From Owenweeksia sp. (GTDB taxonomy: Bacteria; Bacteroidota; Bacteroidia; Flavobacteriales; Schleiferiaceae), in NCBI GenBank assembly GCA_002695025.1, contig NZNV01000001.1, forward strand, positions 1 to 64,000: a stretch of 64,000 nucleotides of DNA, in the 5' to 3' direction. This document shows positions 36,891-41,030 of the stretch, one piece after another (within the stretch, counting starts at the first letter, position 1; each line of letters opens with the position of its first letter). The position numbers and the translations under genes were made by a program. Under the pieces are notes generated by a model, which searched no databases, had not been told where the DNA came from, and worked only from the letters and a program-made list of their open reading frames with translations.

Positions 36891-37895
36891 ATGGAAAAGA
36901 TCAGAATAGGTATCAATGGTTTCGGGCGCATCGGGCGCTCGCTTACCCGTGTTATCCGTAAATATCCTCATATAGAACTGGTAGCCATAAACGATCTGGC
37001 TTCTTTACAAAACCTGGCGCATTTACTGAAGTACGATACGGTACATGGTCATTTTCCGGATGACATCGGTATAGATGGCAACGAACTAGTGGTGGGGAAC
37101 CAACGGATAAGCGTATGGCATGAAAAAGAGCCGGCCCTTATACCCTGGAGGGATAAAGAGGTGGATGTGGTTATTGAAGCGACCGGTCGCTTTAAAAGCC
37201 GTAAGCTGGCTATGCCGCATATAGAAAGGGGAGGTGCCCGTAAAGTTATTATTTCGGCTCCTCCTACCGATGATACCAAGACGATTGTGCTCGGGGCTAA
37301 CGATGATCAGCTTACAGCAGGTGATCTCATAGTTTCCAATGCTTCCTGTACTACCAATTCGGTAGCGCCCTTGCTTAAAGTGATAGACGATGTGTGTGGT
37401 GTGGAACACGCCTATATTACCACCGTGCACAGTTATACCACGGACCAGCAATTACAGGATGGCCCGCATAAGGATTTCCGCAGGGGGCGTGCTGCAGCCG
37501 AAAGCATAGTGCCTACCACTACCGGTGCGGCTAAAGCCATTACCCGCATTTATCCTGAACTGGAAGGCCGTATCGGAGGAGCGGGCATTAGGGTGCCGGT
37601 ACCGGATGGAAGCCTTACGGATATGACCATTACGGTAAAGGAAAAGACCACGGTGGAAGCTATCAATAAGGCCTTTAAGAGGGCTTCGGAAGAAGGGCCT
37701 TTTAAAGGATACCTGGGGTATACTTCAGACCCCATTGTATCCCGCGATGTGATCGGTAGCCCGTACTCCTGTTTATTTGATGAAGAACTGACCTCCGTAT
37801 TGGGAAGAATGGTAAAAGTGGTAGGCTGGTACGATAATGAAATGGGCTATAGCCACCGCCTGGCCGACCTCATCGGTAAGATGATGTTAGCTTAG
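36891..37895 (+). CDS. gap: Glyceraldehyde-3-phosphate dehydrogenase
   Basis: The 334-residue enzyme has the NAD-binding start IRIGINGFGRIGRSLTR, the catalytic cysteine in SNASCTTNSVAP (about residue 150), the HSYTTDQ histidine segment and the closing YDNEMGYSHR. It is a standard phosphorylating GAPDH of glycolysis and gluconeogenesis, cytosolic and tetrameric. The ATG at 36891 is chosen over the longer frame because the Rossmann strand begins four residues in. Asp in AINDLA points to NAD rather than NADP preference. Its last nine bases overlap the end of the convergent hypothetical gene. Confidence 0.95.
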   Translation: MEKIRIGINGFGRIGRSLTRVIRKYPHIELVAINDLASLQNLAHLLKYDTVHGHFPDDIGIDGNELVVGNQRISVWHEKEPALIPWRDKEVDVVIEATGRFKSRKLAMPHIERGGARKVIISAPPTDDTKTIVLGANDDQLTAGDLIVSNASCTTNSVAPLLKVIDDVCGVEHAYITTVHSYTTDQQLQDGPHKDFRRGRAAAESIVPTTTGAAKAITRIYPELEGRIGGAGIRVPVPDGSLTDMTITVKEKTTVEAINKAFKRASEEGPFKGYLGYTSDPIVSRDVIGSPYSCLFDEELTSVLGRMVKVVGWYDNEMGYSHRLADLIGKMMLA

Positions 37896-38267
37896 TTGAA
37901 GGAGCTTTTCAATGTCTTTAATCCGCATAATTCTATACAGAAGTTCCTTAGCAAGAAGTTCATAACATTTATTTTCTTTTAACGTATTGGACGTCAGATG
38001 ATCAAGCCTTGATTCTTCATTTAAGGGATTATTTGGATAGTACTTCAAGCAAGGAAGGTAGCCTTTAACTTTTCCACTTTTTTGATCAGTAACTTCAATT
38101 GCCTGGATACTTATACCAAGCCGATAAGCAAAATCATCAAATATGAAGTAGTAATCACCACTTTGAGAACTGTACTTCTCAATCCATTCAATCATTTTGG
38201 TAGCATTTGAAGCTGGGTCTTTTTTTAGCTCTCTTATAGATTTATTAAAACTATCTTTTGGATTCAT
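37887..38267 (-). CDS. Hypothetical protein
   Basis: The 126-residue protein has no signal peptide or membrane segment. It begins with a charged helical part (SFNKSIRELKKDPASNATKMIEWIEKY), has a short beta region with YYFIFDDFAYRLGISI, and ends in a helical segment. I do not recognise the family. It lies one base downstream of the DUF3307 gene on the same strand, so it may be the third gene of the SatD operon. It is somewhat more AT-rich than its neighbours, suggesting later acquisition. Confidence 0.6.
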   Translation of the reverse strand: MNPKDSFNKSIRELKKDPASNATKMIEWIEKYSSQSGDYYFIFDDFAYRLGISIQAIEVTDQKSGKVKGYLPCLKYYPNNPLNEESRLDHLTSNTLKENKCYELLAKELLYRIMRIKDIEKLLQLS

Positions 38268-38268
38268 C

Positions 38269-38997
38269 TCATTTTAAGTTTAAAAGATTTTCAGCCAGCA
38301 AAGCCACAGCTGCTGCGGTGCCAAAACTCAACAGGCTGCCAATAAGGATGTATTCGGTAAGCTTTCGGTCATGGGCCTGCCGCAGGTCCCCAAAGCGGAA
38401 TACCGATTTGGCGGCCAGTAAAAAACCGATTCCGGACCAGTTCCCGGTCATGATCAACCCGTAGGCAAATACTCTTTCCAGCATGCCAATGTACATGCCT
38501 GCCTTAGGGAGGGCTTTGGTGCTGGCCGCATCATCAATGTAAGGTATCCACTTATCCATCAGTTTGGCAATAATGATGGATAGGGGCTGGGTAAGAAAGA
38601 AAACAGCGGTGATGTGGATAAGGAAATAATCGGACTTCAGGAAACTCAGGACTCTCATTACCTGTCCGGTTACCAGGGCCCAGGCCGTGATGATCAAAAG
38701 CAGGTGTAGTAATTGGTCGGCTATGAACCAACGGATGTGGTTGGTTTGATCCTGCCTATACAGTTTGAGAAGATCAATACCCAGGTGACCCAGGGTGATG
38801 ATGAGTACCAGAGGCCAGTATTCCGTTTGCCCGGCAATGATCAGGGCCAGTGTGGCCAAAACCCCGTGTATGGCCACATGCAGGTATAAATAAGGGGAAC
38901 GTGCCTTGTTGATCTTTTTATCAGCTACCCATTTTCCGGCTTGGGCAGGGAAATCTCCGATCAGATGAGCGAGTATGAGTAGTACCAGGAGTTTCAT
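38269..38997 (-). CDS. DUF3307 membrane protein
   Basis: The 242-residue integral membrane protein has six or seven predicted helices. The DUF3307 signature is visible at the N-terminus: LLILAHLIGDFPAQAGKWVADKK, with conserved H/D residues, then LHVAIHGVLATLAL and TLGHLGIDLLK. The function of the family is unknown; it almost always accompanies a SatD-like protein. Here it overlaps the satD stop by four bases, so both proteins are co-produced. The conserved polar residues inside membrane helices suggest transport or enzyme activity at the membrane. Confidence 0.75.
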   Translation of the reverse strand: MKLLVLLILAHLIGDFPAQAGKWVADKKINKARSPYLYLHVAIHGVLATLALIIAGQTEYWPLVLIITLGHLGIDLLKLYRQDQTNHIRWFIADQLLHLLLIITAWALVTGQVMRVLSFLKSDYFLIHITAVFFLTQPLSIIIAKLMDKWIPYIDDAASTKALPKAGMYIGMLERVFAYGLIMTGNWSGIGFLLAAKSVFRFGDLRQAHDRKLTEYILIGSLLSFGTAAAVALLAENLLNLK

Positions 38998-39638
38998 TTC
39001 AAGTGTTTTTGCAGTTTTTCGCGGAACAGTTGATCCAGCTCCAGTATATCTTCAATGTGAGCTCTCCGGAGGCGGTCACTCACCGTATTTTGTTTGATAC
39101 CCAGTTGCTGGCCAATTTTCGATTGGGTTTGATCCGGTTTTTCAAAAACAAGGTTTACAATTTCTCCTGAGGAAATGGTCCAGCTATCCATAAGGATGGA
39201 GGCCAGCCGCAGGAAGAGGTTCATTTCACGGTTCAGGTCTTCCCAGGGTGTTTGTATGGCCAGGGTTATCTTTTCTTTTTTCAGTTTTTCCAGCCGTTCA
39301 CCGGATTGAATAAAAACCGGCCCGTTGCTTTCCGCAATGCCGGCTCCTTCGTAGTTTTTTTCGCCAATACCAATGGCCAGGCGTACATCGATCTCTGAGA
39401 TACGTTCCTGTTCTTTTTCCGGGCTGAGGCTTTTGATCAGTGCCTTGATGCGAATGGCGGCTTTTAAAGCTTCAGCGGGATCTTCCAGAGCCAGTTGAAA
39501 ACTGTCGCCACGGTATATGTCCCACTGCTGAGGTGAGGTGCCCCATTGCCCCAGCAGGCTTTTCAAAGGCTGGAGCCAGATATCCTGGCTGGGCAGTTTA
39601 CGGGAATCTATTATGTCTCCTGTGAGTACGGCTATCAT
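38994..39638 (-). CDS. SatD-family protein with C-terminal HTH
   Basis: The 214-residue protein begins MIAVLTGDIIDSRKLP and contains WDIYRGDSFQL and DVRLAIGIGEK, the SatD core seen in streptococcal acid-tolerance loci. A helix-turn-helix occupies the C-terminus: QSKIGQQLGIKQNTVSDRLRRA (about 174-195). The core recalls nucleotide cyclase-like folds (GDSFQL), which may bind a nucleotide. It heads a DUF3307 operon and lies 8 bases from a striking five-fold palindrome array, which I infer is its own operator set. The mechanism and the signal remain unknown. Confidence 0.75.
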   Translation of the reverse strand: MIAVLTGDIIDSRKLPSQDIWLQPLKSLLGQWGTSPQQWDIYRGDSFQLALEDPAEALKAAIRIKALIKSLSPEKEQERISEIDVRLAIGIGEKNYEGAGIAESNGPVFIQSGERLEKLKKEKITLAIQTPWEDLNREMNLFLRLASILMDSWTISSGEIVNLVFEKPDQTQSKIGQQLGIKQNTVSDRLRRAHIEDILELDQLFREKLQKHLK

Positions 39639-39646
39639 GATTGCAA

Positions 39647-39778
39647 TATCGGTATTTAAAGCGATAATTTCAAATATCGCTTTTTAAAACGATAAATAAT
39701 TGTATCGGTATTTAAAGCGATACTCCCGGCTATCGCTTCTTAAGAAGATACTAGCTGATATCGTGCTTTAAGGCGATA
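39647..39778. promoter_or_regulatory. Five 20-bp palindromes at exact 28-bp spacing (SatD operator array)
   Basis: Copies start at 39647, 39675, 39703, 39731 and 39759. Copies 1 and 3 are identical (TATCGGTATTTAAAGCGATA); all fit TATCG-N10-CGATA with a central TTTAA or TCTTAA-like core, and only copy 4 departs in its right arm. Eight-base spacers differ. The array occupies the whole promoter region of the SatD operon. Confidence 0.85.
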
Positions 39779-39790
39779 GCACTGAGCCAT

Positions 39791-39819
39791 AAAAAAAGCC
39801 GGTGGTTACACCGGCTTTT
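39791..39819 (-). terminator. intrinsic terminator of the tlpA-like gene
   Basis: AAAAGCCGGTG (39794-39804) pairs with CACCGGCTTTT (39809-39819), and the minus strand continues into Ts down to 39791. It lies 20 bases after the stop of the thioredoxin-like gene and so insulates the SatD array. Confidence 0.85.
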
Positions 39820-39839: not shown

Positions 39840-41030
39840 TTAGGAGCCCAGAACTTCCTTCAGCTTAGCTTCCAGCTGGGGACCGCGTAATTCAGTGGCA
39901 ATAATATTACCGTCACGATCTACCAATACGGTAAAGGGAATTCCTGTAAACCCAAACTGGCGCACTACCGCGCTGTTCCATCCTTGCAGGTCACTCACGT
40001 GGTTTTCCCAGCTAAGGCCGTCATCGCTGATGGCTTTGGTCCAGTCTTCCTTGGGGTTAGGCTGTTGGGGAAGTCCATCCAGGGAAACACTGAATACATC
40101 GAAGCCTTTGCCTTTATACTCGTTGTACATGCGTACGAGGTTGGGATTTTCTGCACGGCAGGGACGACACCATGCGGCCCAAAAGTCAACCAGTACTACT
40201 TTTCCTTTAAGATCGGCCAGGCTGTGCATATTTCCATCAGGGCCGGTCATTTCAATGTTGGGTACCGGGTTACCGGGTTTCAGGCTTTCCCGCACTTTTT
40301 CCATTTCCCTGCTTAAGGCAGCGTTCTCCCTGATTTGTGCCATTCTCTCCTCAAAGTTGAGCACGTGCTCATTATCGGGATGTTTTTCCTTGAGGTCGGC
40401 CAATACTTTTTCAAAATACTCCAGGTCATCCTGGGGCGTAAAAATGTTGGTGCGTCCCATTATCTGGGCAAAAACAAAGAGGTTGGGCACGCTGTACGGA
40501 TCTTCTTCCACAAAGTCCTTTAGCTGCTGTTTGGTATCCATGGCCACTGCATTGCGAATAGAGTCTGATTTTTTGCGTACCTCCATGAAATTGGTACTGT
40601 CCATAGCGCTGCGGTTTATGGAGTCCAGTTCATCCACGCGGTCAAAGGCATCCCTCATAATGTGGTTGATCTTCAGGATACGTTCAGATTCCTTGCTGCC
40701 GCTAACGGTATACTCACGGTTGCCCTTCTCACCCGTAACTTCAATTTCCACGTTTTCACCGGGTTGAATGTAAGTTAACACCCTGTAATGATCATCGCTG
40801 GTTTCCACCACCACAAAATTGGCGGTACTGTCCCTTTCCAGGGTATAGCTAAACTTAGAATCAGTAAGCGCAATGGTGTCCACCGGCTTAATACCCTCCG
40901 GCTTTAAAAAAGATATGATCACTTCCTCACCTTCACCGGCAACAGAGCCTTGGATGCGGGTTTTTCCACCGCCTGAACAGGCCACTGCGGATAGTAAGGG
41001 TAGAGCTATAAATAAGTGTTTGAATTTCAT
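39840..41030 (-). CDS. TlpA-like thioredoxin lipoprotein with DUF4369 domain
   Basis: The 396-residue protein has a lipobox (LLSAVAC, acylated Cys18), a DUF4369-like N-terminal beta domain (about 25-115), a helical linker and a C-terminal AhpC/TSA-thioredoxin domain with the active site WCRPC in VDFWAAWCRPCRAENPNL (about 280-297). Such proteins act as periplasmic disulfide reductases or in cytochrome maturation. CSGGG lacks acidic residues, suggesting retention in the periplasm. The start is four bases after gatB's stop, so it is the last gene of a long operon and ends in a strong terminator. Confidence 0.8.
   Translation of the reverse strand: MKFKHLFIALPLLSAVACSGGGKTRIQGSVAGEGEEVIISFLKPEGIKPVDTIALTDSKFSYTLERDSTANFVVVETSDDHYRVLTYIQPGENVEIEVTGEKGNREYTVSGSKESERILKINHIMRDAFDRVDELDSINRSAMDSTNFMEVRKKSDSIRNAVAMDTKQQLKDFVEEDPYSVPNLFVFAQIMGRTNIFTPQDDLEYFEKVLADLKEKHPDNEHVLNFEERMAQIRENAALSREMEKVRESLKPGNPVPNIEMTGPDGNMHSLADLKGKVVLVDFWAAWCRPCRAENPNLVRMYNEYKGKGFDVFSVSLDGLPQQPNPKEDWTKAISDDGLSWENHVSDLQGWNSAVVRQFGFTGIPFTVLVDRDGNIIATELRGPQLEAKLKEVLGS

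Follow-up and report, generated by a model that had tools for sequence, protein, structure and literature searches.

Which protein reads the evenly spaced palindromes in front of the satD gene of Owenweeksia sp., and what do they control? We analysed the window, i.e. the whole 64,000-nucleotide stretch of contig NZNV01000001.1 (assembly GCA_002695025.1) that contains the locus. An original prediction, made from the letters alone, had described an array of five palindromic 20-mers upstream of satD and had proposed SatD itself as the binding protein. The five 20-bp palindromes were verified at 39647–39778, with starts at 39647, 39675, 39703, 39731 and 39759, exactly 28 bp apart and separated by 8-base spacers. 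Site 1 (39647..39666; TATCGGTATTTAAAGCGATA) is proximal to satD and lies 8 bp from its start codon (ATG at 39638, minus strand), as had been stated; site 2 (39675..39694) reads TATCGCTTTTTAAAACGATA, site 3 (39703..39722) is indeed identical to site 1, site 4 (39731..39750) reads TATCGCTTCTTAAGAAGATA and site 5 (39759..39778) is the distal one, no strand being assigned to any of them. The claim that every copy fits TATCG-N10-CGATA holds for four of them exactly, whereas copy 4 has one mismatch, AGATA for CGATA. The array sits between satD (38994..39638, minus strand) and a hairpin at about 39791–39819 (minus strand, read by eye) that serves as terminator for the next minus-strand gene upstream, so that the array stops short of this hairpin as described; by gene family assignment, the gene upstream of the array is thioredoxin-like (39840–41030, minus strand).

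The array is not a product of chance, since it scored 18.1 in the window, whereas 100 dinucleotide-shuffled versions of this region never exceeded 5.05. Across the whole assembly, TATC-N12-GATA-N8-TATC-N12-GATA with zero mismatches was found at this array only. Single sites with up to two mismatches numbered 34 in the window, compared with 17.0 expected, and the only exact single site elsewhere in the 4.46-Mb assembly was a lone one (C14:7663), compared with ten occurrences of the reversed control pattern; thus single sites per se are not enriched genome-wide. A relaxed double site with up to three mismatches showed no excess over the whole assembly (23 in total versus 23 for the control).

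Relatives of SatD were collected from the family (16 of 88 genomes with a match), from the class (68 of 396 genomes with a match; eight weak rows with E about 1e-4 were dropped) and from a genome collection, in which 572 places were confirmed and the best 80 used. The SatD frame was found at 159/159 loci, its start at 157 and enough upstream sequence at 154, leaving out L012 and L018 (no start) and three loci with short upstream sequence. Removal of proteins at least 75% identical to a kept one reduced the 154 loci to a non-redundant set of 114, which over-represents close relatives. Autocorrelation over 170 bp upstream of these 114 loci gave z 38.0 at lag 28 and z 21.6 at its multiple, lag 56, followed by lags 16 (z 7.1) and 29 (z 6.5); these z values are not strict probabilities, as the loci are related to one another. 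The coding sequences of the same loci, used as a control, gave z −5.9 at lag 28 and their own maximum of 6.8 at lag 15. The best lag was 28 at 74/114 loci and 29 at 16/114. A palindrome-chain caller, for which periods of 20–40 were tried, chose 28 at 88 loci, 29 at 20 and other periods at six; as it rewards palindromic outer positions, palindromy is partly built into its result, whereas the lag test is free of that. An array score above 6 was obtained for 96/114 real upstream regions, compared with 1/114 shuffled ones, 79 of the 96 having a 28-bp and 17 a 29-bp period, with two to eight copies per array and most commonly three (46 of the 96 loci). No array above the threshold was present at 18/114 loci. 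Similar palindromes at other satD loci, whose absence would have spoken against the original prediction, are thus commonly present, and such arrays are usual there. The 29-bp period was seen in a divergent set of SatD proteins (e.g. L063, L072 and L058), often with TATAAG, TATAGC or TATTAG half-sites; that these form a single clade was rejected, as the 29-bp loci were scattered over several places on a quick tree.

The gene pair is also carried on plasmids. Eighteen plasmid records had a DUF3307 match, and in the 11 examined, including two haloarchaeal ones and that of Segatella, originally detected through SatD, the gene before DUF3307 matched the SatD profile built in the present study (11/11; the weakest match was Fusobacterium, E 1e-6). 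The Pfam SatD model found 4/9 tested plasmid proteins at E 0.01. Under a strict test, in which sequence similarity was required, a similar palindrome pair 28 or 29 bp apart was detected in 6/11 plasmids (L166, L167, L169, L172, L173 and L175) compared with 0/1,100 shuffles, namely those of Segatella, Vibrio lentus, Pseudoalteromonas and Enterobacter kobei and two near-identical haloarchaeal loci. A laxer test of ten loci for a 28- or 29-bp step picked out L167, L169, L172, L173, L175 and L176, the Klebsiella plasmid (29 bp) passing this test only. No palindrome pair qualified in the Sphingomonas, Salinivibrio, Fusobacterium and E. coli pEC34A plasmids. The satD-like gene and DUF3307 make up much of two tiny plasmids, pEC34A (L170, 3.8 kb), in which the other annotated genes are Rop, MobA and one short ORF, and the Klebsiella plasmid (L176, 4.4 kb). 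On the Sphingomonas insulae plasmid (L171), the pair lies beside genes annotated as Pycsar effector and cysteine-rich protein, with an annotated adenylate/guanylate cyclase and an HTH-ImmA pair as further neighbours.

A scan made without reference to satD, with TATCG-N10-CGATA-N8-TATCG-N10-CGATA at up to two mismatches as the query, detected the double site in 20/396 genomes, whereas the reversed control pattern was present in one genome. Among the double-site places listed, 43/48 (18/20 genomes) were within 400 bp of satD. The remaining five listed places represent four orphan arrays distant from any detected satD. One of these (L199:1354–1518, genome G286) is flanked by what looks like a remnant of the start of a lost satD (tblastn E about 0.02, 80% over 15 residues, in its first codons), and the remainder of satD was not found at that locus. 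Another (L197:4039–4086; G163:C1:418038) consists of two TATCGG-type sites at 28 bp with the same half-site as the SatD array of that genome, situated approximately 20 bp before a short ORF (a small lipoprotein by eye) and near an ASCH-domain gene; going by its sequence, this pair is a possible second SatD target. The other two, L200:3979–4054 (G091) and L198:3963–4010 (G448), are 28-bp arrays with no satD detected alongside.

SatD of the window is a protein of 214 amino acids in which a nucleotide-cyclase/GGDEF-like fold at the N-terminus is followed by a C-terminal HTH. It matched the Pfam SatD family (PF16264) with 21.9 bits over positions 4–197 of 211, below the 29-bit cut-off, and its relatives G003, G107 and G025 exceeded that cut-off. 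In the structural model (mean pLDDT 96), residues 1 to about 150 resembled GGDEF domains, class III cyclases, GTP cyclohydrolase III and Cmr2. Foldseek aligned the model with a GGDEF protein at E 1.8e-4 and a TM-score of 0.43, and VIA gave Z 11.3 over 126 residues for GGDEF and 11.1 over 109 residues for GTP cyclohydrolase III. The N-terminal domain, as modelled, thus has the palm fold of nucleotide cyclases and GGDEF proteins. Conservation was nearly complete at Asp8, Asp45 and Arg86 (113/114 each) and complete at Gly44 (114/114). Asp8 and Asp45 lie in the model at strand 1 and at the strand 2–3 turn, the places of the cyclase metal ligands, to which they may be equivalent. The C-terminal HTH of the original prediction was present in the model at residues 172–192 (39063..39125, minus strand). 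A SatD profile searched against solved structures had a HipB antitoxin as its best match, which was weak (E 0.0019) and covered the HTH only. PADLOC gave a weak SatD match (E 0.0058) and no DUF3307 match, and a scan of viral contigs with SatD yielded 46 pattern matches, none of which was confirmed.

The sequence of the sites varied between loci in a manner that followed the HTH. Among 279 sites from arrays with a 28-bp period, conservation of the outer TAT was strong (T at −10 in 85%, A at −9 in 95% and T at −8 in 97%) and the centre was A/T-rich. The three positions inside the TAT differed between loci, with palindromic pairing of 88, 80 and 71% in the sites of the 96 loci, values that are partly built in because the caller rewards pairing. 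Half-site statistics were restricted to these 96 loci; TATCGT was found at 30/96 and TATCGG at 10/96, the others including TATTGC, TATCAC, TATAAG, TATTAC and TATTCC. What is conserved is the geometry, a 20-bp palindrome at a 28- or 29-bp period, together with the outer TAT, and TATCG/CGATA is one version only.

When the SatD columns were compared with the variable bases by mutual information, Asp188, Asn184 and Thr185 came at or near the top, with Trp39, Pro24 and Leu28 likewise high. We compared 714 pairs of proteins that were at least 55% identical across residues 1–150, of which 298 had the same triplet and 416 different ones. Between same-triplet and different-triplet pairs, the fraction in which the residue differed rose from 0.04 to 0.78 at Asn184, from 0.09 to 0.78 at Thr185, from 0.11 to 0.67 at Asp188 and from 0.14 to 0.50 at Lys182, the four largest shifts in SatD. 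A stratified test of all 4,560 pairs ranked Asp188 and Asn184 first, followed by Trp39, Arg192, Thr185 and Pro24; since Trp39 and Pro24 rank high and are outside the HTH, some shared ancestry remains in the covariation. With j counting bases outward from the palindrome centre, Asn184 went with C at j7 (37/38), Ser185 with G at j6 (39/43) and Asn185 with T (4/4), and at j5 Gly188 went with T (25/30), Glu188 with G (13/18) and Lys or Arg188 with C (18/20). In the predicted HTH, the recognition helix spans residues 183–192, which puts residues 184, 185 and 188 on the expected contact face. The half-site therefore changes with the recognition helix of the SatD encoded next to it, and on the strength of this covariation SatD is very probably the binder and the array its autoregulatory operator, in support of what had originally been proposed.

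The presumed operon has DUF3307 as its second gene (38269..38997, minus strand; PF11750, E=1.2e-26), which overlaps the satD stop in the window. DUF3307 was found downstream of satD on the same strand at 112/114 loci, with a gap within about 100 bp except at L107 (301 bp). Its model was all-helical, and eight residues were invariant in 73 aligned sequences (His11, Asp15, His40, His71, Asp75, Asp94, Gln95 and His98). Comparison with solved folds gave no convincing match (best E 0.47), and a profile search against them was also without a match. A PHROG family annotated as membrane protein matched the window DUF3307 at 1.2e-14, and DUF3307 is probably a membrane protein. This match, together with a gene annotated as DUF3307 in a published phage gene table, indicates that DUF3307 relatives exist in phages; tblastn of the window protein against phages gave none at 1e-5. 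A third shared gene was also sought. The two largest neighbour clusters (48 and 34 loci), both encoded on the opposite strand, are probably shadow frames, and the largest on the same strand were RmuC-like (15 loci) and thioesterase-like (14 loci), named from one Pfam example each. In the window, a 126-amino-acid ORF without a Pfam match lies 3′ of DUF3307 on the same strand (37887–38267).

Taken together, we put at approximately 0.86 the probability that the array is a SatD-bound, co-operative and autorepressive operator of the satD–DUF3307 operon, probably under nucleotide control. SatD, probably as a dimer, would use its C-terminal HTH to dock on each 20-bp palindrome, with one recognition helix per half-site, and its residues 184, 185 and 188 would recognize the variable triplet that adjoins the conserved TAT on the inner side. 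The 28-bp steps, which correspond to 2.67 helical turns of 10.5 bp each and would place neighbouring sites on rotated faces, may bring adjacent dimers into contact and so allow co-operative binding, and SatD would repress the operon because the array lies over or beside the promoter. A nucleotide ligand, probably sensed (or made) by the cyclase-fold domain, would loosen or tighten the assembly. The −7 promoter motif of Bacteroidota, TAnnTTTG, occurred 49 times upstream of the 79 28-bp loci, and 25 of these occurrences were in one register, with the TA at the edge of a site; it was not found upstream at 43/79 loci, which leaves the position of the promoter uncertain. The final good site ended exactly 8 bp before the ATG at 23/79 of these loci. 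Both the register and the 8-bp placement suit promoter occlusion, although they are not proof of it, and they fit less well with the opposite sign of regulation, in which SatD would act mainly as an activator, with distal copies recruiting RNA polymerase and nucleotide binding as the switch. Arrays of up to eight copies do extend well upstream of the start, and the evidence for binding is neutral on the sign; on balance, we regard activation as unlikely.

Other readings dispense with SatD as the regulator, or with regulation of transcription at the DNA, and all are considerably less likely than activation. That a different cellular HTH protein binds the array, with SatD merely its regulatory target, is conceivable for an Xre-type reader, given the HipB antitoxins at the top of the SatD-profile matches and the 28-bp step of hipBA; we consider it highly improbable, as the half-site changes together with the recognition helix of the neighbouring SatD and as satD on plasmids of distant hosts has similar palindrome pairs. 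Slightly less probable again are leader or attenuator hairpins formed by the palindromes in RNA. The satD-direction strand of the array does fold better than 200/200 shuffles (−40.7 kcal/mol, z −4.5), which is expected of any set of inverted repeats, whereas the exact 28-bp step, the A/T-rich centres, the proximity to the start codon and the covariation with a DNA-binding helix are unexpected for hairpins. We attach just as little weight to a partition or centromere-like site with SatD as a DNA-organizing protein: par loci have repeat arrays beside an autoregulator on plasmids, the present module can likewise be plasmid-borne, and in the Vibrio and Segatella plasmids a gene upstream of the module carries the annotation ‘AAA family ATPase’, but the satD loci come mostly from genome contigs, several of them chromosome-sized, and the constant partner gene is DUF3307.

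The autoregulatory operator proposed for SatD has its closest likeness in E. coli hipBA. Palindromes of both start with TATC, and O1–O2 and O3–O4 of hipBA are exactly 28 bp apart from start to start, the same as in the window. Unlike the uniform SatD array, hipBA has a 39-bp O2–O3 step and thus two pairs; its HipB site is TATCC-N8-GGATA (18 bp) compared with TATCG-N10-CGATA (20 bp) for SatD of the window, its partner is the HipA kinase rather than DUF3307, and SatD has a cyclase-fold domain in addition. The SatD array is therefore hipBA-like in geometry, and lies outside the hipBA type by site length and partner. According to two reports, HipB achieves co-operative autorepression at four operators with a DNA bend of 70 degrees (PMC3376134 and PMC3920265). 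Our literature search, from which subscription journals were mostly absent, found no paper on hipBA with ‘28 bp’ and no description of a satD operator array. NrdR also joins nucleotide-binding and DNA-binding domains on tandem palindromes, with a box spacing near three turns; SatD has this domain plan in common with it, but the folds differ and the SatD spacing is 2.67 turns. Lambda-type operators, at which co-operative dimers occupy adjacent palindromes of an autoregulated promoter, have three sites spaced near 24 bp, unlike the two to eight sites at 28 or 29 bp of the SatD arrays.

What the satD–DUF3307 pair does in the cell can be approached through its distribution. Streptococcal SatD of the sat operon has the same gene name and is presumably of the same Pfam family as SatD of the window. 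One study reports an accessory satD in S. pyogenes, present in 178/249 genomes, that was nonetheless essential in those strains that were tested (PMC11323703), and those parts of PMC10210942 and PMC12005413 that are accessible mention satD and no operator. The essential yet accessory nature of the S. pyogenes gene, together with plasmid carriage, makes an antitoxin-like or defence role possible, whereas the common RmuC-like and thioesterase-like neighbours suggest vertical retention and count against such a role. More speculatively, and with greater doubt than confidence, satD–DUF3307 could be an unrecognized two-gene conflict or stress module, widely exchanged among Bacteria and Archaea, in which a cyclase-fold repressor that coats its own 28-bp-phased array would free it on a nucleotide signal and unleash DUF3307 as a membrane effector, while diversification of the recognition code would insulate coexisting copies.

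The present analysis supplies a concrete and testable, if still putative, regulatory mechanism for two genes that have hardly been studied. With a geometry that stays constant and letters that co-evolve with the recognition helix, such an operator offers a natural dataset for the protein–DNA recognition code, and the 28-bp step common to hipBA and SatD suggests a shared rule for the packing of HTH dimers. Finally, the fusion of a cyclase-like domain to an HTH points to nucleotide control of a probable membrane protein.
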